This document shows, one piece after another, positions 15,271 to 25,072 of a DNA stretch of 51,140 nucleotides. The stretch is from assembly GCA_002067745.1 (NCBI GenBank), contig MVRU01000011.1:1-51140 (forward strand). The letters run 5' to 3'. The stretch comes from Syntrophus sp. PtaU1.Bin005. Lineage in GTDB: Bacteria; Desulfobacterota; Syntrophia; Syntrophales; Syntrophaceae. The first letter of the stretch is position 1; the number at the start of each line of letters is the position of its first letter. The notes beneath the pieces are model-generated. The model was not told where the DNA came from, made no database searches, and saw nothing but the letters and a program-made list of their open reading frames with translations. A program made the position numbers and the translations under genes.

Positions 15271-16631
15271 TAGAAAGCACCGTTCACGTCGTCAACCTCG
15301 GCTGCCCGAAAAATCTCGTGGATTCGGAGGTGATGGCCGCCCTGCTGGCCCAGGCCGGTTGCCGGATCGTCTCCACGCCGGAAGAGGCCGAAATCGTGCT
15401 TCTCAACACCTGCGCCTTCATCCTGCCGGCCCGGGAGGAATCCATCGATGAAATCTTCCGGCTCGCCGAATGGAAAAGGAAGGGGAAATGCAGGCATCTC
15501 ATCGTTACCGGCTGCCTGCCCCAGCGCTACGGCGCGGAGCTGGCGGCGGAGATCCCCGAGGTGGACCTCTTTCTGGGGATATCGGAAGTGCCGAACATCG
15601 CCGATCATCTCCGGAAGTTGCGAGACGGGCAACTCGATGCGCAGGCAAACCGCGCCGTGGTGACCCCGCCCCTCTTCCTCATGAATGCCGGCCATCCCCG
15701 CCTCCTTTCCGCGCCGACCTTCAGCGCCTACCTCAAAATCGCCGAGGGCTGTTCGCATCGCTGCGCCTACTGCGTCATCCCCGAGATCCGGGGAAAGGCC
15801 CGCAGCCGGCCCGTCGATGATCTCCTCGAGGAGGCGCAAGGCCTGGCCGATCGCGGCATCCGGGAACTGATCCTGATCGCCCAGGACACCACCGCCTACG
15901 GCCGCGACCTGCCCGGAAGGCCCACCCTGGCCCTTCTCCTCCGGGAACTGGCCGCCCTGGAGGGCCTGGCCTGGATCCGCCTTCTCTACACCTATCCATC
16001 CGGCCTGGCGGACGAACTCTTCGCGGTCATCGCGGAGCATGACCGGATCTGCCCCTACCTGGATGTCCCGATCCAGCACATCGACGACGCCGTTCTCAAG
16101 GCCATGAAGCGCCAAGGCGACAGCCGCCGGATCCGGAAGAGGCTGAGCCGCGCCCGGGAGGTCATCCCAGGCCTCGCCCTGCGGACCTCACTCATCGTGG
16201 GTTTCCCCGGAGAGACACCGGCTCAATTCAACCGCCTCCTGGCGTTTGTCCAGGAGATCCGCTTTGATCATCTCGGGGTCTTTCCCTATTCCCCGGAAGA
16301 GGGGACGCCTGCGGACAAGCTGCCCCGCCAGGTCTCGGAGCGGACCAAAAAGGCCCGGCGCAATCTGCTCATGGAGGAGCAGGCGGTCATTTCCAACGAG
16401 ATCAATTCGACCCTCGTGGGCTCCCTCCAGGAGGTGCTCATTGAAGGCCCGAGTGGCCATCCCGACTATCCCTTCGTGGGGCGCTGCCGCCGCCAGGCCC
16501 CGGAAATCGACGGGGTGACCTATGTAAAAGGCGGAAACCAGGCCCTTCCGCCCGGCTCCCTCGTCCCCTGCCGGATCGTTGCGGCAGACGACTACGATCT
16601 CTTTGCAGAGCCTGTTGGATCGCCGTATTGA
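15267..16631 (+). CDS. rimO: Ribosomal protein S12 methylthiotransferase RimO
   Basis: A 454-aa radical SAM methylthiotransferase. The UPF0004 domain has its three cluster cysteines C13 (GCPKN), C49 (NTCAF) and C83 (TGCLPQRY). The radical SAM motif C162-x3-C166-x2-C169 is in GCSHRCAYC, and a TRAM domain ends the protein. GCPKNLVDSE separates RimO from MiaB. It modifies an aspartate of S12. ATG 15267 overlaps the ftsK stop by 4 bp. Confidence 0.95.
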   Translation: MIESTVHVVNLGCPKNLVDSEVMAALLAQAGCRIVSTPEEAEIVLLNTCAFILPAREESIDEIFRLAEWKRKGKCRHLIVTGCLPQRYGAELAAEIPEVDLFLGISEVPNIADHLRKLRDGQLDAQANRAVVTPPLFLMNAGHPRLLSAPTFSAYLKIAEGCSHRCAYCVIPEIRGKARSRPVDDLLEEAQGLADRGIRELILIAQDTTAYGRDLPGRPTLALLLRELAALEGLAWIRLLYTYPSGLADELFAVIAEHDRICPYLDVPIQHIDDAVLKAMKRQGDSRRIRKRLSRAREVIPGLALRTSLIVGFPGETPAQFNRLLAFVQEIRFDHLGVFPYSPEEGTPADKLPRQVSERTKKARRNLLMEEQAVISNEINSTLVGSLQEVLIEGPSGHPDYPFVGRCRRQAPEIDGVTYVKGGNQALPPGSLVPCRIVAADDYDLFAEPVGSPY

Positions 16632-16642
16632 AGAGGGCCGAC

Positions 16643-18175
16643 ATGCCTGATAAAAAGCGCATCTTCATCAGTTCTGTCCAGAAGGAGCTCGAACTGGAGC
16701 GGGCCGCCGTCTCAGGCCTCATTGCCACGGACCCCTTTCTGATGCAGCATTGCAGCCCGATCCTATTTGAACGGGAGCCTGCCTCTTCCCGCCCCGCTTC
16801 CATGCCCTATCTCGACAGGCTTCGCGAATGCTCCGTTTACGTGCTCCTCGTCGGAACGGAGTACGGTCGACCGGACGGGGGCCTTTCGGCCACCCACCAC
16901 GAATACCGCCTCGCCCGGGAGCTCAAGCTTCCCTCCCTGATTTTTCTCAAGGGGATGACCGATGAAGGCCGCTTGCCGGAGACGCGGGCCTTCATCGAAG
17001 AGATCAAAAAGGCCGGCCACACCTACAAGAGATTTCATGATCGGGAAGACCTCAAGCCGGAAATGCTCCGGGCGCTCCTGCGCACCCTGGCCGAACAATT
17101 CGGGATTCAGGCCACCAGCGCCGAGCAAAACGAAAGCGAACACCTGATTGAAGCGGCCTCGTCCTTCGAGACAGCCATGCTGAGGGATGTGCCGGTCAGC
17201 GAACTCGATCAGCGGCTGATCGAGGAATTCAAGGGCCGGATTCCCGGCGATAACCACGAAACATGGTCTGCCGCCGAGGTGCTCCATGCCCGGGGTCTCC
17301 TGCTCCGCTGCGATCATCCGGCCGCATTCTGCGCCAGCGCAGCGGCACTCGTTCTTTTCGGCGAACATCCCGCCTTTCGTTTTCCCCAATGCGAAATCCT
17401 CGTCGATGCCTACGACGATACGCGCATCTCGGGCCGACCCAAAGGTCAGCTGAACGTAAACGCCCCGCTTCCCCATGCCCTGGAAGAGATCCTTGCCTTC
17501 ATCGACGCTCACACCTTCCATCCCCGGCGCGTGGTCGGCCTCAACAGCATCCGCCTCAATGAGTATCCACAGGCGGCCATCCGGGAAGCCCTCCTGAACG
17601 CCGTTGCCCACCGCAACTACGAGGACGCTTCGCGCAAAGTCTTCGTCCGCCTCTTCAGCAACCGCATCGAGATCGCCAGCCCCGGCTACCCGCTCAAACC
17701 GATCACCCTGGCCAAATTGCGAAAAGGCAACTACCGCCCCTGTTCGAGGAATCCCCTGATCGCCCAGGGCCTCTGCATCCTGGATAAAATGGAGCAGCGG
17801 GGAACGGGCTTCGCCCGCATGCGCGACGCCATGCTCAACCACGGCCTCGATCCGCCCGTTCTCGATCAGCAGGACGGCTTTTTCGTGGTCACACTGCCCG
17901 GACCGGCCGGCAACTACGACCGCCTGAGGCCGCCTACCGATGCGCCGGGCTTCATTACTCCCGCCATGGAAGCCCGGCTCAATGAGCGACAGCGAAGAAT
18001 TGTGATGCAGATCCAAGAGGGCGGCAGCGTCACCAATAAGTGGATCCGGGACACGTTCAACGTGGTGCGTGATACAGCCTATCGCGATATCCAGTTGCTT
18101 CTTGACCTGCACATCATCGAAAGGAGAGGGCGTGGGCGTTCAATCCGCTATGTTCTTACAGGAGAACGGGCGTAA
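16643..18175 (+). CDS. DUF4062 / GHKL-ATPase / winged-helix protein
   Basis: A 510-aa three-part protein. Residues 1-150 are DUF4062, a TIR-like fold: RIFISSVQKELELER, then YVLLVGTEYG and THHEYRLA. Residues about 300-420 resemble the GHKL ATPase region of RecG-like/AlbA regulators, with N-box AIREALLNAVAHRNY and G-box EQRGTGFARM. A winged helix lies at 445-505. The TTG at 16628 is possible, but ATG 16643 has AAGAGGG in front and starts directly with the domain. It overlaps or abuts rimO yet is unlike a housekeeping gene; what follows is a decayed restriction-modification remnant. DUF4062 proteins are often found in anti-phage loci. A role in defence is inference; transcriptional regulation is the alternative. 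Confidence 0.8.
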   Translation: MPDKKRIFISSVQKELELERAAVSGLIATDPFLMQHCSPILFEREPASSRPASMPYLDRLRECSVYVLLVGTEYGRPDGGLSATHHEYRLARELKLPSLIFLKGMTDEGRLPETRAFIEEIKKAGHTYKRFHDREDLKPEMLRALLRTLAEQFGIQATSAEQNESEHLIEAASSFETAMLRDVPVSELDQRLIEEFKGRIPGDNHETWSAAEVLHARGLLLRCDHPAAFCASAAALVLFGEHPAFRFPQCEILVDAYDDTRISGRPKGQLNVNAPLPHALEEILAFIDAHTFHPRRVVGLNSIRLNEYPQAAIREALLNAVAHRNYEDASRKVFVRLFSNRIEIASPGYPLKPITLAKLRKGNYRPCSRNPLIAQGLCILDKMEQRGTGFARMRDAMLNHGLDPPVLDQQDGFFVVTLPGPAGNYDRLRPPTDAPGFITPAMEARLNERQRRIVMQIQEGGSVTNKWIRDTFNVVRDTAYRDIQLLLDLHIIERRGRGRSIRYVLTGERA

Positions 18176-19562: not shown

Positions 19563-19931
19563 ATGAACCAGCCCCAGTGGGAAGAAGAGAGTGAAAAGCG
19601 AAGAGAGGAATCGGAGAAGCGTCACGCGCGGATGGCCAGGCTTTTTAAAGAAGACCGCCTGGCCTTTGAACGGGAGCGCAAGCGGCTTCTCGATGAGTTT
19701 TTCAGCAGTGTCGAGGATGAAGATCTGCGCCAGCGGCTGCGAGCTCTGCAGGCTTCCTTCGAAACGAAAATGAAGCACGCCGGATCAGCCCACAATCGGT
19801 TCGTGCTGGCCCAGACATTGTTCTGGGACAATTTTCACAACAACTGGGAGCCCGGCATCCTGCAGTTCAATGAATCCCTGAAGAGCCTGGAGAGAAACTA
19901 CAGCGCCTTCGATGATGAGCCGGATTCTTAG
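19563..19931 (+). CDS. DUF3135 family protein
   Basis: A 122-aa, highly charged and mostly helical protein. Residues 10-60 are Glu/Arg/Lys-rich and likely coiled coil. The second half (LRALQASFETKMKHAGSAHNR, then FWDNFHNNW) matches the DUF3135 pattern. ATG 19563 has GAGGAGG upstream; a longer frame from 19524 lacks a ribosome site. The function is unknown. Its 3' end overlaps the convergent outer-membrane gene by 4 bp. Confidence 0.7.
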   Translation: MNQPQWEEESEKRREESEKRHARMARLFKEDRLAFERERKRLLDEFFSSVEDEDLRQRLRALQASFETKMKHAGSAHNRFVLAQTLFWDNFHNNWEPGILQFNESLKSLERNYSAFDDEPDS

Positions 19932-20737
19932 AGCCCGCCGTTCTGGTAGGTGTAGGTTACGGCGACGCCGGCCGAAAACCTCTCCGAATATCGGCCTTCC
20001 GCGTTAAGATGAAACCCCCTGCCCAGGGGCACGGAAATTCCTCCATAACCGCCGATCTCCGTTTTATTCTTCACAGTGGCATCTTCTTCCAGCAACGGGA
20101 TTCCAGAAACCTGGCGGGAGGAGGTCACACGGGCTTCCGAGTAATGGATGAAGGGACCGGCATACAGGATGATCCCGCGGGGGGCGGTGGCTGATACGCT
20201 GATCCCCGACGTGATCTCCCACAGATCCCTGACGTTGAGTTCCGCCTTGTAGGGGGCGCCATTCCAATGCCCCCTGACCTCGTCTCCGAAATCGCCGAAG
20301 AAGAAGGAACCCTGAAGAAAAGCGCCGATGCCGAAAGCCCCTCCCAGGGGAAGGAAGACCTTGGCCCCCAGGGCACCGAAAGGCGTTTCATTTTCCTCAA
20401 AATCATCGGAAGAAGAGGTGGTCGTATTTATCCTGGAACGGAAACCATCTTCGATCTCCAGATCGGCGATCCCGATTCTCCCGTAAACTTCCCAGAGGTG
20501 GCGGGCGCCGCCATAGGCCACCTGCGAATATACCCGGTTCTGCCGGAATACGCAGGTCCCGTTACCCTCGAATTTATCCTCATGATAGTCAAACCCGACG
20601 GTCGTGTTCAATCCGCCTTTCTCCCTTGAAAGCGACTGCGGGGGGCCGAACAGGCCGCCCGCGGCAGCAGTTCCCGGGACAGAAAAAAGGACCAACAGAA
20701 GGGACATCCCTAGAAATTTCATCAGTAGTTTCGCCAT
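19928..20737 (-). CDS. Outer-membrane beta-barrel protein
   Basis: A 269-aa protein with signal peptide (MAKLLMKFLGMSLLLVLF...AAAGG) and alternating hydrophobic/polar strands rich in Gly and Tyr, e.g. RVYSQVAYGGARHLWEVYGR and IILYAGPFIHYSEA. These suggest a barrel of roughly 10-12 strands. ATG 20737 follows GGAGG. It is the last gene of the mla operon, 44 bp after mlaA, so it may work in or monitor outer-membrane lipid balance. No specific porin family is recognised. The C terminus ends VTYTYQNGGL rather than in a terminal Phe. Confidence 0.75.
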   Translation of the reverse strand: MAKLLMKFLGMSLLLVLFSVPGTAAAGGLFGPPQSLSREKGGLNTTVGFDYHEDKFEGNGTCVFRQNRVYSQVAYGGARHLWEVYGRIGIADLEIEDGFRSRINTTTSSSDDFEENETPFGALGAKVFLPLGGAFGIGAFLQGSFFFGDFGDEVRGHWNGAPYKAELNVRDLWEITSGISVSATAPRGIILYAGPFIHYSEARVTSSRQVSGIPLLEEDATVKNKTEIGGYGGISVPLGRGFHLNAEGRYSERFSAGVAVTYTYQNGGL

Positions 20738-22973: not shown

Positions 22974-24215
22974 TTACTCCTGCGTGTCGCACGTTATGCG
23001 GCCGATTTCTTTCTGCCGGTCTCTTGCGCACTCAATGACAGACTCAATTTTTTCCAGCAGGTTGCCCTGGGCCATTCCGGCAAGAACAACCAGTTCAACA
23101 CACCCATCACCCATTTTGCCGACGGCCTCGCCCTGGATGCCCCGGATCCCTTCTTCCTGGAATTCATTAATAAAATCAACCATGAGGGCATCCGCTTCGG
23201 TCTGATCCGAATAGGGGAGCATGGTCACGAACTGTTGAGCATTGACCCGGGTGGAAAAACCGCCGATGGGACCAAAGTGCTTATCGATGAACAGCCCGGT
23301 GCTGTGGATCGCCTTCTGTGCCGCATCGTGTCCCAGGTTGCTGATGACGGAATCCAGCCCCTCCAGGGTAAAGATGATGATGGTGAAGCTTTCCCCCAGA
23401 GCGCCCCCTTTCATGCTTGCATGATACTGAATCTTGAACTGCCGCTTGGAGCGCAGCCCCGTCAGTTCCTGCTGCAGGCCCTCAAGACTGCGTATGACCT
23501 CATCCTTGAAGGGATGGTCAAAATCCTCCAGCTCCTCAACGGTTCCCTGAAAGACAATGGTCCGGTTGTACAGGGCCAGGATTCGATTGGAGATGAAGTA
23601 GACGTCGGGAATCTCGTGGCTGACCAGGACCGCGGTAAACCCGAATTTTCTCTGATACTGGGCGATCATGCTCAGGATGGCATTTTTCCGCACCGGGTCC
23701 TGTCCGGACGTCGGTTCATCGAAGAGGACGATCTGGGGATCGATGACCAGGGCCCGCGCCAGGGCCGCCCGCTTCTGCATGCCCCCGGAAAGTTCGGAGG
23801 GATATTTGTACATCGCGTCGATCAGCTCCGTCTGCTCGATCCGGGCCCTGACCCTGCGGTCGATTTCCGCTTTTTTGAGCCTCGTCGTTTCCCGAAGGGG
23901 CAGAGCGATATTGTCATAGACGGTCATGGAATCAAAGAGCGCGTTGTCCTGAAACATGTAGCTCATCCGGCCCAGAGCGGCATACCGTTCCTTTTTGCTC
24001 ATCTGGTCCAGGGGCTGCCCCCGGAACAGGATGCTCCCTTCATCCGGTTGAAGCAGACCGATGATATGCTTGAGAAGGACGCTCTTGCCGCCACCGCTCA
24101 AACCGATGATGGTCGTGACCTCCCCCTCATAAATTTTCAGATTGACCTTTTCCAGGACGGTGAGGGATCCGAAACGCTTCGTCACGTCCCGAAATTCGAT
24201 CAGTGGATTATCCAT
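22974..24215 (-). CDS. mlaF: ABC ATPase MlaF with a C-terminal GGDEF-like domain
   Basis: A 413-aa protein where MlaF is usually about 270 aa. The N-terminal 240 residues are a complete ABC ATPase: Walker A GLSGGGKS near 40, Q-loop FQDN, signature LSGGMQKRAALARAL near 144, Walker B IVLFDEPTSGQDP near 164, H-loop VSHE. After a short linker, residues about 270-413 form a second domain. FTIIIFTLEGLDSVISNLGH and the later NAQQFVTMLP align by eye with a diguanylate-cyclase fold whose GGDEF is replaced by NAQQF, so catalysis is unlikely. Two ATGs (24218, 24215) lie side by side after GAGG; 24215 has the better spacing. It powers lipid transport with MlaE and MlaD. Confidence 0.88.
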   Translation of the reverse strand: MDNPLIEFRDVTKRFGSLTVLEKVNLKIYEGEVTTIIGLSGGGKSVLLKHIIGLLQPDEGSILFRGQPLDQMSKKERYAALGRMSYMFQDNALFDSMTVYDNIALPLRETTRLKKAEIDRRVRARIEQTELIDAMYKYPSELSGGMQKRAALARALVIDPQIVLFDEPTSGQDPVRKNAILSMIAQYQRKFGFTAVLVSHEIPDVYFISNRILALYNRTIVFQGTVEELEDFDHPFKDEVIRSLEGLQQELTGLRSKRQFKIQYHASMKGGALGESFTIIIFTLEGLDSVISNLGHDAAQKAIHSTGLFIDKHFGPIGGFSTRVNAQQFVTMLPYSDQTEADALMVDFINEFQEEGIRGIQGEAVGKMGDGCVELVVLAGMAQGNLLEKIESVIECARDRQKEIGRITCDTQE

Positions 24216-24223
24216 CATCAACC

Positions 24224-25072
24224 TCAGAGCAGAAGGGAGGTAACCACATAATCCGATACCAGGATCAGCACACAGGAGAGGACGACGGCCGAGGTCGTTG
24301 CCAGACCGACGGCTTTCGCCCCGCGGCTCTCCGAACGCATATGGGCAAAATAGCCCTGATAGCAGCAGACCGTGGCGACAATGACCGCAAAGACGAACGC
24401 CTTGACGAACCCATCGGTCACATCCTTCATCTCCACACTGGACTGCACGCGATAAAAATAGGTGCCGGCGTTGGCGCCCATGATCCAGACACCGGAAACG
24501 TAACTGCCCAGAATGCCGATCAGGTCAAAAAGGGTGGTCAGAATGGGAAAGCTGATAATGGCCGCTGCAATCCTCGGGCTGACGAGGTATCTCAGCGGAT
24601 CGATGTGCATGGTGTCGAGGGCGTCAATCTGCTCGGAGATTCGCTGGATTCCGATTTCCGCGGTAATGGCGGATCCGGCCCTGGCCGTGATCATGATGGC
24701 GGTCAGGACGGGTCCCAATTCCCGGATCAGCGACAGGGCGACGAGGGTGCCTAGGGCCCCTTCCGCACCGACCTTGACCAGGGCGTGGTAGGATTGAAGG
24801 CCCAGGACCATGCCGGTAAAAAGGCCGACCAGCATGATGATCATCATGGATCTCGCCCCGATGTAATAGACCTGCTGAATCACCTTCTCCAGTTGGCGGG
24901 CACGGGGGATCCTCATGATGGCCAGCAGCAGAAAGATCACGGCAGCGCCTGCATGGTTTACCCAGTTAAGCGCCGTACTGCCCAGCAGCGCAAAGGGCAG
25001 GGTCAGCAGCCTGCCCGGCCGCCGCGGTTCCCCATTCTCAAAAGATTTCTGTATCTTCGCAGACAGCTTCAT
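24224..25072 (-). CDS. mlaE: Mla permease MlaE
   Basis: A 282-aa integral membrane protein of the MlaE/Ttg2B permease family with about five helices. The family signature ELGPVLTAIMITARAGSAITAEIG is present, followed by the long segment ALDTMHIDPLRYLVSPRIAA. It is the first gene of the mla operon; the shared upstream region with msrAB (25073-25445) contains an 18-bp palindrome. It is followed by mlaF after a few bases. Confidence 0.93.
   Translation of the reverse strand: MKLSAKIQKSFENGEPRRPGRLLTLPFALLGSTALNWVNHAGAAVIFLLLAIMRIPRARQLEKVIQQVYYIGARSMMIIMLVGLFTGMVLGLQSYHALVKVGAEGALGTLVALSLIRELGPVLTAIMITARAGSAITAEIGIQRISEQIDALDTMHIDPLRYLVSPRIAAAIISFPILTTLFDLIGILGSYVSGVWIMGANAGTYFYRVQSSVEMKDVTDGFVKAFVFAVIVATVCCYQGYFAHMRSESRGAKAVGLATTSAVVLSCVLILVSDYVVTSLLL

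Follow-up and report, generated by a model that had tools for sequence, protein, structure and literature searches.

In the Escherichia coli MlaFEDB system the ATPase MlaF has a C-terminal extension that wraps the neighbouring MlaF and contacts MlaB; deletion of this extension abolishes function, which GCN4 dimerisation restores in part, and in other ABC ATPases folded C-terminal domains self-associate below the ATPases (PMC7367683). GGDEF domains offer a second precedent for protein contacts; i.e. some isolated GGDEF domains, degenerate ones included, dimerise or bind each other strongly, although strong homodimerisation was found for only 2 of 7 isolated degenerate E. coli domains (PMC5635695). 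A profile survey of Mla components in 1,083 genomes assigns MlaABC mostly to Proteobacteria, and the part of its text consulted here makes no mention of an MlaF fusion and does not place GGDEF together with MlaF (PMC10665443). No description of a fusion of MlaF, or of an ABC transporter, to a GGDEF domain was found in the open-licence literature; domain databases may list the architecture.

Such a fusion is encoded in the window analyzed here, a stretch of 51,140 nucleotides from Syntrophus sp. PtaU1.Bin005. The gene stands second in a compact operon with the order mlaE, mlaF, mlaD, mlaC, mlaA, the neighbours being assigned by Pfam family (Table 1), and its reading frame is uninterrupted between the ATG at 24215 and the stop codon at 22976-22974. 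The ATPase motifs are complete: Walker A GLSGGGKS, signature LSGGMQ, Walker B IVLFDEP and an H-loop histidine, H200, with the LSGGM signature being typical of MCE systems. The predicted ATPase structure superimposes on E. coli MlaF (6xbd_I) with Z 30.4 and rmsd 2.2 over 241 residues of 38% identity. Walker A and B, the LSGGM signature and the MlaE and MlaD neighbours mark the protein as MlaF-type. The NCBIfam equivalog model NF008809 is the best match among all models at 199 bits but does not reach its cutoff of 441, and the protein is therefore named from its operon and motifs and not as an NF008809 equivalog. Along the linker helix behind the ATPase, hydrophobic residues recur at 4-3-4-3 intervals (240, 244, 247, 251, 254); they are conserved and continue into the LTGL motif, and the stalks through which diguanylate cyclases dimerise show the same periodicity.

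Table 1. Features of the mla operon and of the MlaF-GGDEF protein, in window coordinates
Feature	Position	Strand	Basis
mlaF-ggdef gene, 413 aa	22974..24215	-	translation and operon order
mlaE permease, 282 aa, first gene of the operon	24224..25072	-	PF02405, E 2.3e-76
mlaD, short MCE protein, 156 aa	22499..22969	-	PF02470, E 2.2e-20
mlaC periplasmic chaperone, 199 aa	21879..22478	-	PF05494, E 1.5e-45
mlaA lipoprotein, 354 aa	20782..21846	-	PF04333, E 5.3e-65
MlaF ABC ATPase domain, residues 1-235	23511..24215	-	motifs, profile matches, match to E. coli MlaF fold
Linker/stalk helix, residues 235-252	23460..23513	-	predicted structure, conserved hydrophobic pattern
Degenerate GGDEF domain, residues about 243-413	22977..23489	-	Pfam, PDB profile matches, profile-profile comparison, predicted topology
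GGDEF-motif position, residues 325-329, N-A-Q-Q-F	23229..23243	-	alignment to intact cyclases
Arg323 (= PleD Arg366), invariant in 38/38 representatives	23247..23249	-	alignment

Two further genes of the window may be recorded. Directly 3' of mlaA (19928-20737, minus strand) is a 269-aa protein with an apparent signal peptide and an outer-membrane beta-barrel-like sequence that has no Pfam match; a relative lies behind mlaA in 38 of the 56 tail-bearing mla operons whose downstream sequence is long enough, and the protein is possibly an MlaA partner. On the plus strand (16628-18175) a 515-aa protein combines DUF4062 with a RecG-C-like HATPase_c_4 domain.

A sequence-only reading of this DNA had noticed about 145 extra residues behind the ATPase; these are present but number about 170 (243-413), and the two segments that it quoted, FTIIIFTLEGLDSVISNLGH (residues 277-296) and NAQQFVTMLP (residues 325-334), lie as it had described. 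Its proposal that they belong to a GGDEF-family domain whose signature motif is broken is borne out by three comparisons. Pfam GGDEF (PF00990, gathering cutoff 23.8 bits) matches the tail alone (residues 248-413) with 26.0 bits, E 8.6e-6, over residues about 250-346, and scores 23.1 bits, just under the cutoff, in the whole 413-aa protein. A profile of 22 tails run against the PDB has GGDEF proteins as its best matches (E 2e-8), and set against five intact diguanylate cyclases from the source genome, profile to profile, it gives 96.8% probability, E 2.3e-10. Of the contrary outcomes named beforehand, a STAS-like or an ACT-like tail, the first did not materialize (hhalign probability 0.2%, no Pfam STAS match), and Pfam gives no ACT, NIL or TOBE family match for the protein.

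The full-length AlphaFold model (pLDDT 82.7, pTM 0.64) follows the linker helix with a second helix, 257-269, and then with elements predicted in the order βααββαβαβ that is characteristic of GGDEF: β276-285, α287-294, α296-314, β320-325, β328-334, α338-365, β375-385, α390-399 and β402-407. In Foldseek and VIA-align searches with this model ABC ATPases fill the matches listed and no GGDEF chain is among them, the tail not being probed independently of the ATPase; MetN chains align partly into the tail with high rmsd in VIA-align, and the Foldseek MetN alignment spans about 360 columns. Single-sequence structure prediction of the tail alone gives pLDDT 40.5. The profile matches identify the tail as a degenerate GGDEF domain, and the predicted order of elements agrees with a complete one.

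The degree of degeneracy is seen when the tail is mapped to PleD numbering by alignment with intact cyclases, in which we take D327 to be a metal ligand, N335 and D344 to be guanine contacts and RxxD to be the I-site. In the window protein PleD D327 is replaced by T283, the third position of the motif, also a metal-ligand site, by Q327, N335 by I291 and D344 by Q300, and the I-site RxxD is missing, the sequence there reading PIGGFSTR. Of 38 representatives of less than 60% identity (8 early-branching and 30 later-branching) none has D327, D344 or the second motif Gly. RxxD is retained in 4 of the 38, all of them among the 8 early-branching, and the latter also keep N335 in 4/8 and the first motif Gly in 7/8. 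With NAQQF in place of GG(D/E)EF and Thr283 in place of the metal-binding Asp the window protein does not have the features of an active diguanylate cyclase; as judged from its residues, catalysis by the tail is excluded because the metal, guanine and most GGDEF positions are lost, and since the I-site is replaced as well, neither GTP turnover nor classical c-di-GMP binding would be expected of the window tail. Because the early-branching members retain more of these residues, the simplest reading of the alignment is that the tail descends from a normal GGDEF domain that decayed stepwise. On one contig (L166; G191 contig 15) a pair of MlaF-GGDEF genes is separated by about 4 kb; one has a late and the other an early-branching type of tail, and the two differ in motif decay.

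Distribution was surveyed in the source phylum and, within the source order, in 60 genomes. The MlaF-GGDEF fusion occurs in more than 100 loci of public genomes and is thus neither a chance event nor a sequencing artefact. Related loci are mostly labelled Syntrophus, Smithella or Syntrophaceae, the nearest being a Syntrophus MAG at 80% identity; names such as "WOR-3" (L069), "Thermotoga" (L107) and "Desulfovibrio" (L098) in record titles are labels given to MAGs and were not relied on for taxonomy. Tail-bearing MlaF is found in mlaEFDC(A) operons of 20-odd family-level groups of the phylum, with a dozen further family codes lying beyond the order, while other families of the phylum have mlaEFDC operons with a tail-less MlaF. 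Within the order MlaC is present in 31 of the 60 genomes, and the tail in 27 of these 31 (including one contig-edge fragment and one strongly diverged tail) and in none of the 29 MlaC-negative genomes. Three of the four MlaC-positive exceptions were examined (G030 was left out): G014 and G046 have a mlaE-F-D-A-C operon with tail-less MlaF, and G051 (L264, 1783-2655) is a natural truncation in which the GGDEF core is gone, the linker and first helices are kept and the operon is intact. The MlaF of a long-MlaD mlaEFD paralogue has no tail, and no tail homologue was found on plasmids. Those weaker matches to the tail profile that were examined in relatives, 313-339 aa in length, proved to be GGDEF proteins of the usual kind, their motifs intact.

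A tree built by a quick method from MlaE plus the MlaF ATPase (67 rows) accounts for tail presence with a single change. All 27 tail rows fall, together with one tail-less row (L214), in a clade of SH-aLRT 100, and the branch that splits off L214 has a value of only 55; the distribution fits one acquisition of the tail, which was then retained and now and then lost. Median dN/dS is 0.21 for the tail against 0.07 for the ATPase (87 pairs, maximum 0.39), and the tail is under purifying selection.

The role favoured here for the tail, by analogy, is that of an assembly or dimerisation domain, or a docking domain, in place of the E. coli MlaF "handshake"; docking had been offered in the sequence-only reading, and is favoured together with dimerisation. 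The argument for a protein-contact domain draws on the precedent of the E. coli extension, on the self-associating C-terminal domains of other ABC ATPases, on the stalk-like spacing of the linker helix and on the fact that the GGDEF tail starts at the same point of the chain as the E. coli extension. Hung on a helix that exits the ATPase at this point, two GGDEF domains would lie close together in an MlaF dimer, where the pair may self-associate or dock a partner. Working through such contacts, the tail would stabilize or tune the MlaF dimer as well as the dimer's grip on MlaE, a job that falls to the MlaF "handshake" and MlaB in E. coli and to other C-terminal domains in MetN or MalK. From these analogies we infer the position of the tail in the complex, its dimerisation and an effect on transport. 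That the protein is an E. coli-type Mla ATPase with a dead GGDEF tail acting by protein contacts on the MlaF dimer appears somewhat better than an even bet; against it stand G051, which has lost the GGDEF core and yet retains an intact operon, the tail-less operons of other families and the hints of residual ligand binding (both described below), and the strong homodimerisation of only 2 of 7 isolated degenerate GGDEF domains in E. coli.

Partner docking could also take a more specific form, in which the tail engages an active diguanylate cyclase, or some other protein of the GGDEF/EAL type, and the GGDEF-GGDEF heterodimer ties the Mla pump to local c-di-GMP signalling. Degenerate E. coli GGDEF domains are known to make strong and specific heteromeric contacts (PMC5635695), and apart from the tail the genome has seven GGDEF matches that exceed the Pfam cutoff; in at least five of these the GG(D/E)EF motif is intact. 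However, no cyclase gene is linked to the mla operon in the window, the two GGDEF proteins that neighbour mla genes at other loci (L175, L235) are single occurrences and no docking partner is identifiable from sequence; this connection is considered rather unlikely, if the foremost of the alternatives.

Slightly less probable still is a ligand sensor, the tail altering the ATPase rate upon binding a nucleotide (GTP or ATP; c-di-GMP in relatives). Residual ligand binding is hinted at by the phosphate-contact positions K402 and R406 (PleD K442 and R446), which are kept in the window tail and have equivalents in 16/30 and 19/30 later-branching representatives, and by a Glu equivalent to E371, kept in 20/30 of the latter; the intact RxxD of half of the early-branching tails points the same way. 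On the other side stand the replacement of metal ligands, guanine contacts and I-site in the window and the loss of D327, D344 and the second Gly throughout the representatives. The suggestion, made from the letters of the DNA, that a nucleotide signal tunes lipid traffic thus fares poorly for the window protein: sensing is disfavoured because the I-site is lost besides the catalytic and guanine residues, and binding of a nucleotide other than GTP or c-di-GMP is possible because K402 and R406 are retained. A scheme in which the early-branching RxxD tails are c-di-GMP receptors that switch phospholipid traffic, and in which the window branch converted the receptor to a ligand-independent or otherwise gated clamp, would be a long shot.

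A direct replacement of MlaB, with the tail packing on the MlaF helical subdomain in the manner of the STAS protein, is given an equally low chance. As had been observed at the outset, no STAS/MlaB gene is found in the window operon or adjoining it, nor does a STAS gene lie in or near the operons of the tail-bearing genomes tested, and the tail begins where the MlaB-contacting extension of E. coli begins. But tail-less operons among the relatives tested likewise adjoin no STAS gene, so that a neighbouring MlaB is absent from both classes, the two distributions are not complementary and replacement is unproven; the tail and STAS also show no sequence similarity. Since many other families have tail-less mlaEFDC operons with no STAS gene beside them, neither MlaB nor a tail is generally needed. 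The free STAS_2 proteins C30 and C121 were rejected as candidate MlaB: both adjoin HATPase-like genes, one lies also behind a response-regulator protein, and from this context they look like anti-sigma antagonists. The third STAS of the genome is fused to the N-terminus of the MlaE of a second MCE system (C55, 393 aa; L110, L112), the phylum has repeated instances of ORFs of similar size (about 380-430 aa) that match STAS, and C9 is a third MlaE of the genome.

That the tail is a decaying leftover of no important role, as its faster evolution relative to the ATPase and the loss of the core in G051 might suggest, is very improbable given its retention in more than 20 family-level groups, a dN/dS clearly below 1 and the invariant R323.

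The fusion goes back to a single acquisition, as far as the tree and distribution show, and has been retained in many families of one phylum; there the tail probably holds or adjusts the pump and does not make or read a signal. This points to a different solution for MlaF assembly or control in the MlaC/MlaA systems outside Proteobacteria. Regulation of Mla is open even in E. coli, where the role of MlaB is unclear, and the tail-bearing branch, with no neighbouring MlaB, offers a clean probe of the job that the MlaF tail performs; a folded C-terminal domain on the single MlaF chain can be deleted, swapped or grafted. A degenerate GGDEF domain is also an addition to the list of C-terminal domains of ABC ATPases.

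Compared to the GGDEF domains (PF00990) of PleD and WspR, the tail shares the predicted topology, the LTGL start motif, a GH motif, the Arg before the signature motif and a K/R pair near the C-terminus; it differs in its lost metal, guanine and (in the window) I-site residues, in having NAQQF for GGDEF, and in standing C-terminal to an ABC ATPase rather than to a sensor domain. E. coli CdgI and CsrD similarly combine a dead active site with likely protein contacts, but CdgI keeps its I-site and neither protein is fused to a transporter ATPase. The NIL domain of MetN and the TOBE domains of MalK and ModC are likewise folded domains behind an ATPase, whereas by sequence the tail belongs to a different family. 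The Veillonella-type mlaEFD (PMC10665443) is a paralogous MlaB-less system present in the source order (L199-L202), with a long MlaD, a tail-less MlaF and an operon that has neither MlaC nor MlaA. With E. coli MlaFEDB the system described here shares the ATPase fold, the LSGGM signature and the genes mlaE, F, D and C; it differs in having mlaA inside the operon and, in place of an extended tail of ~25 residues and the STAS protein MlaB, a GGDEF domain of ~170 residues and no MlaB.
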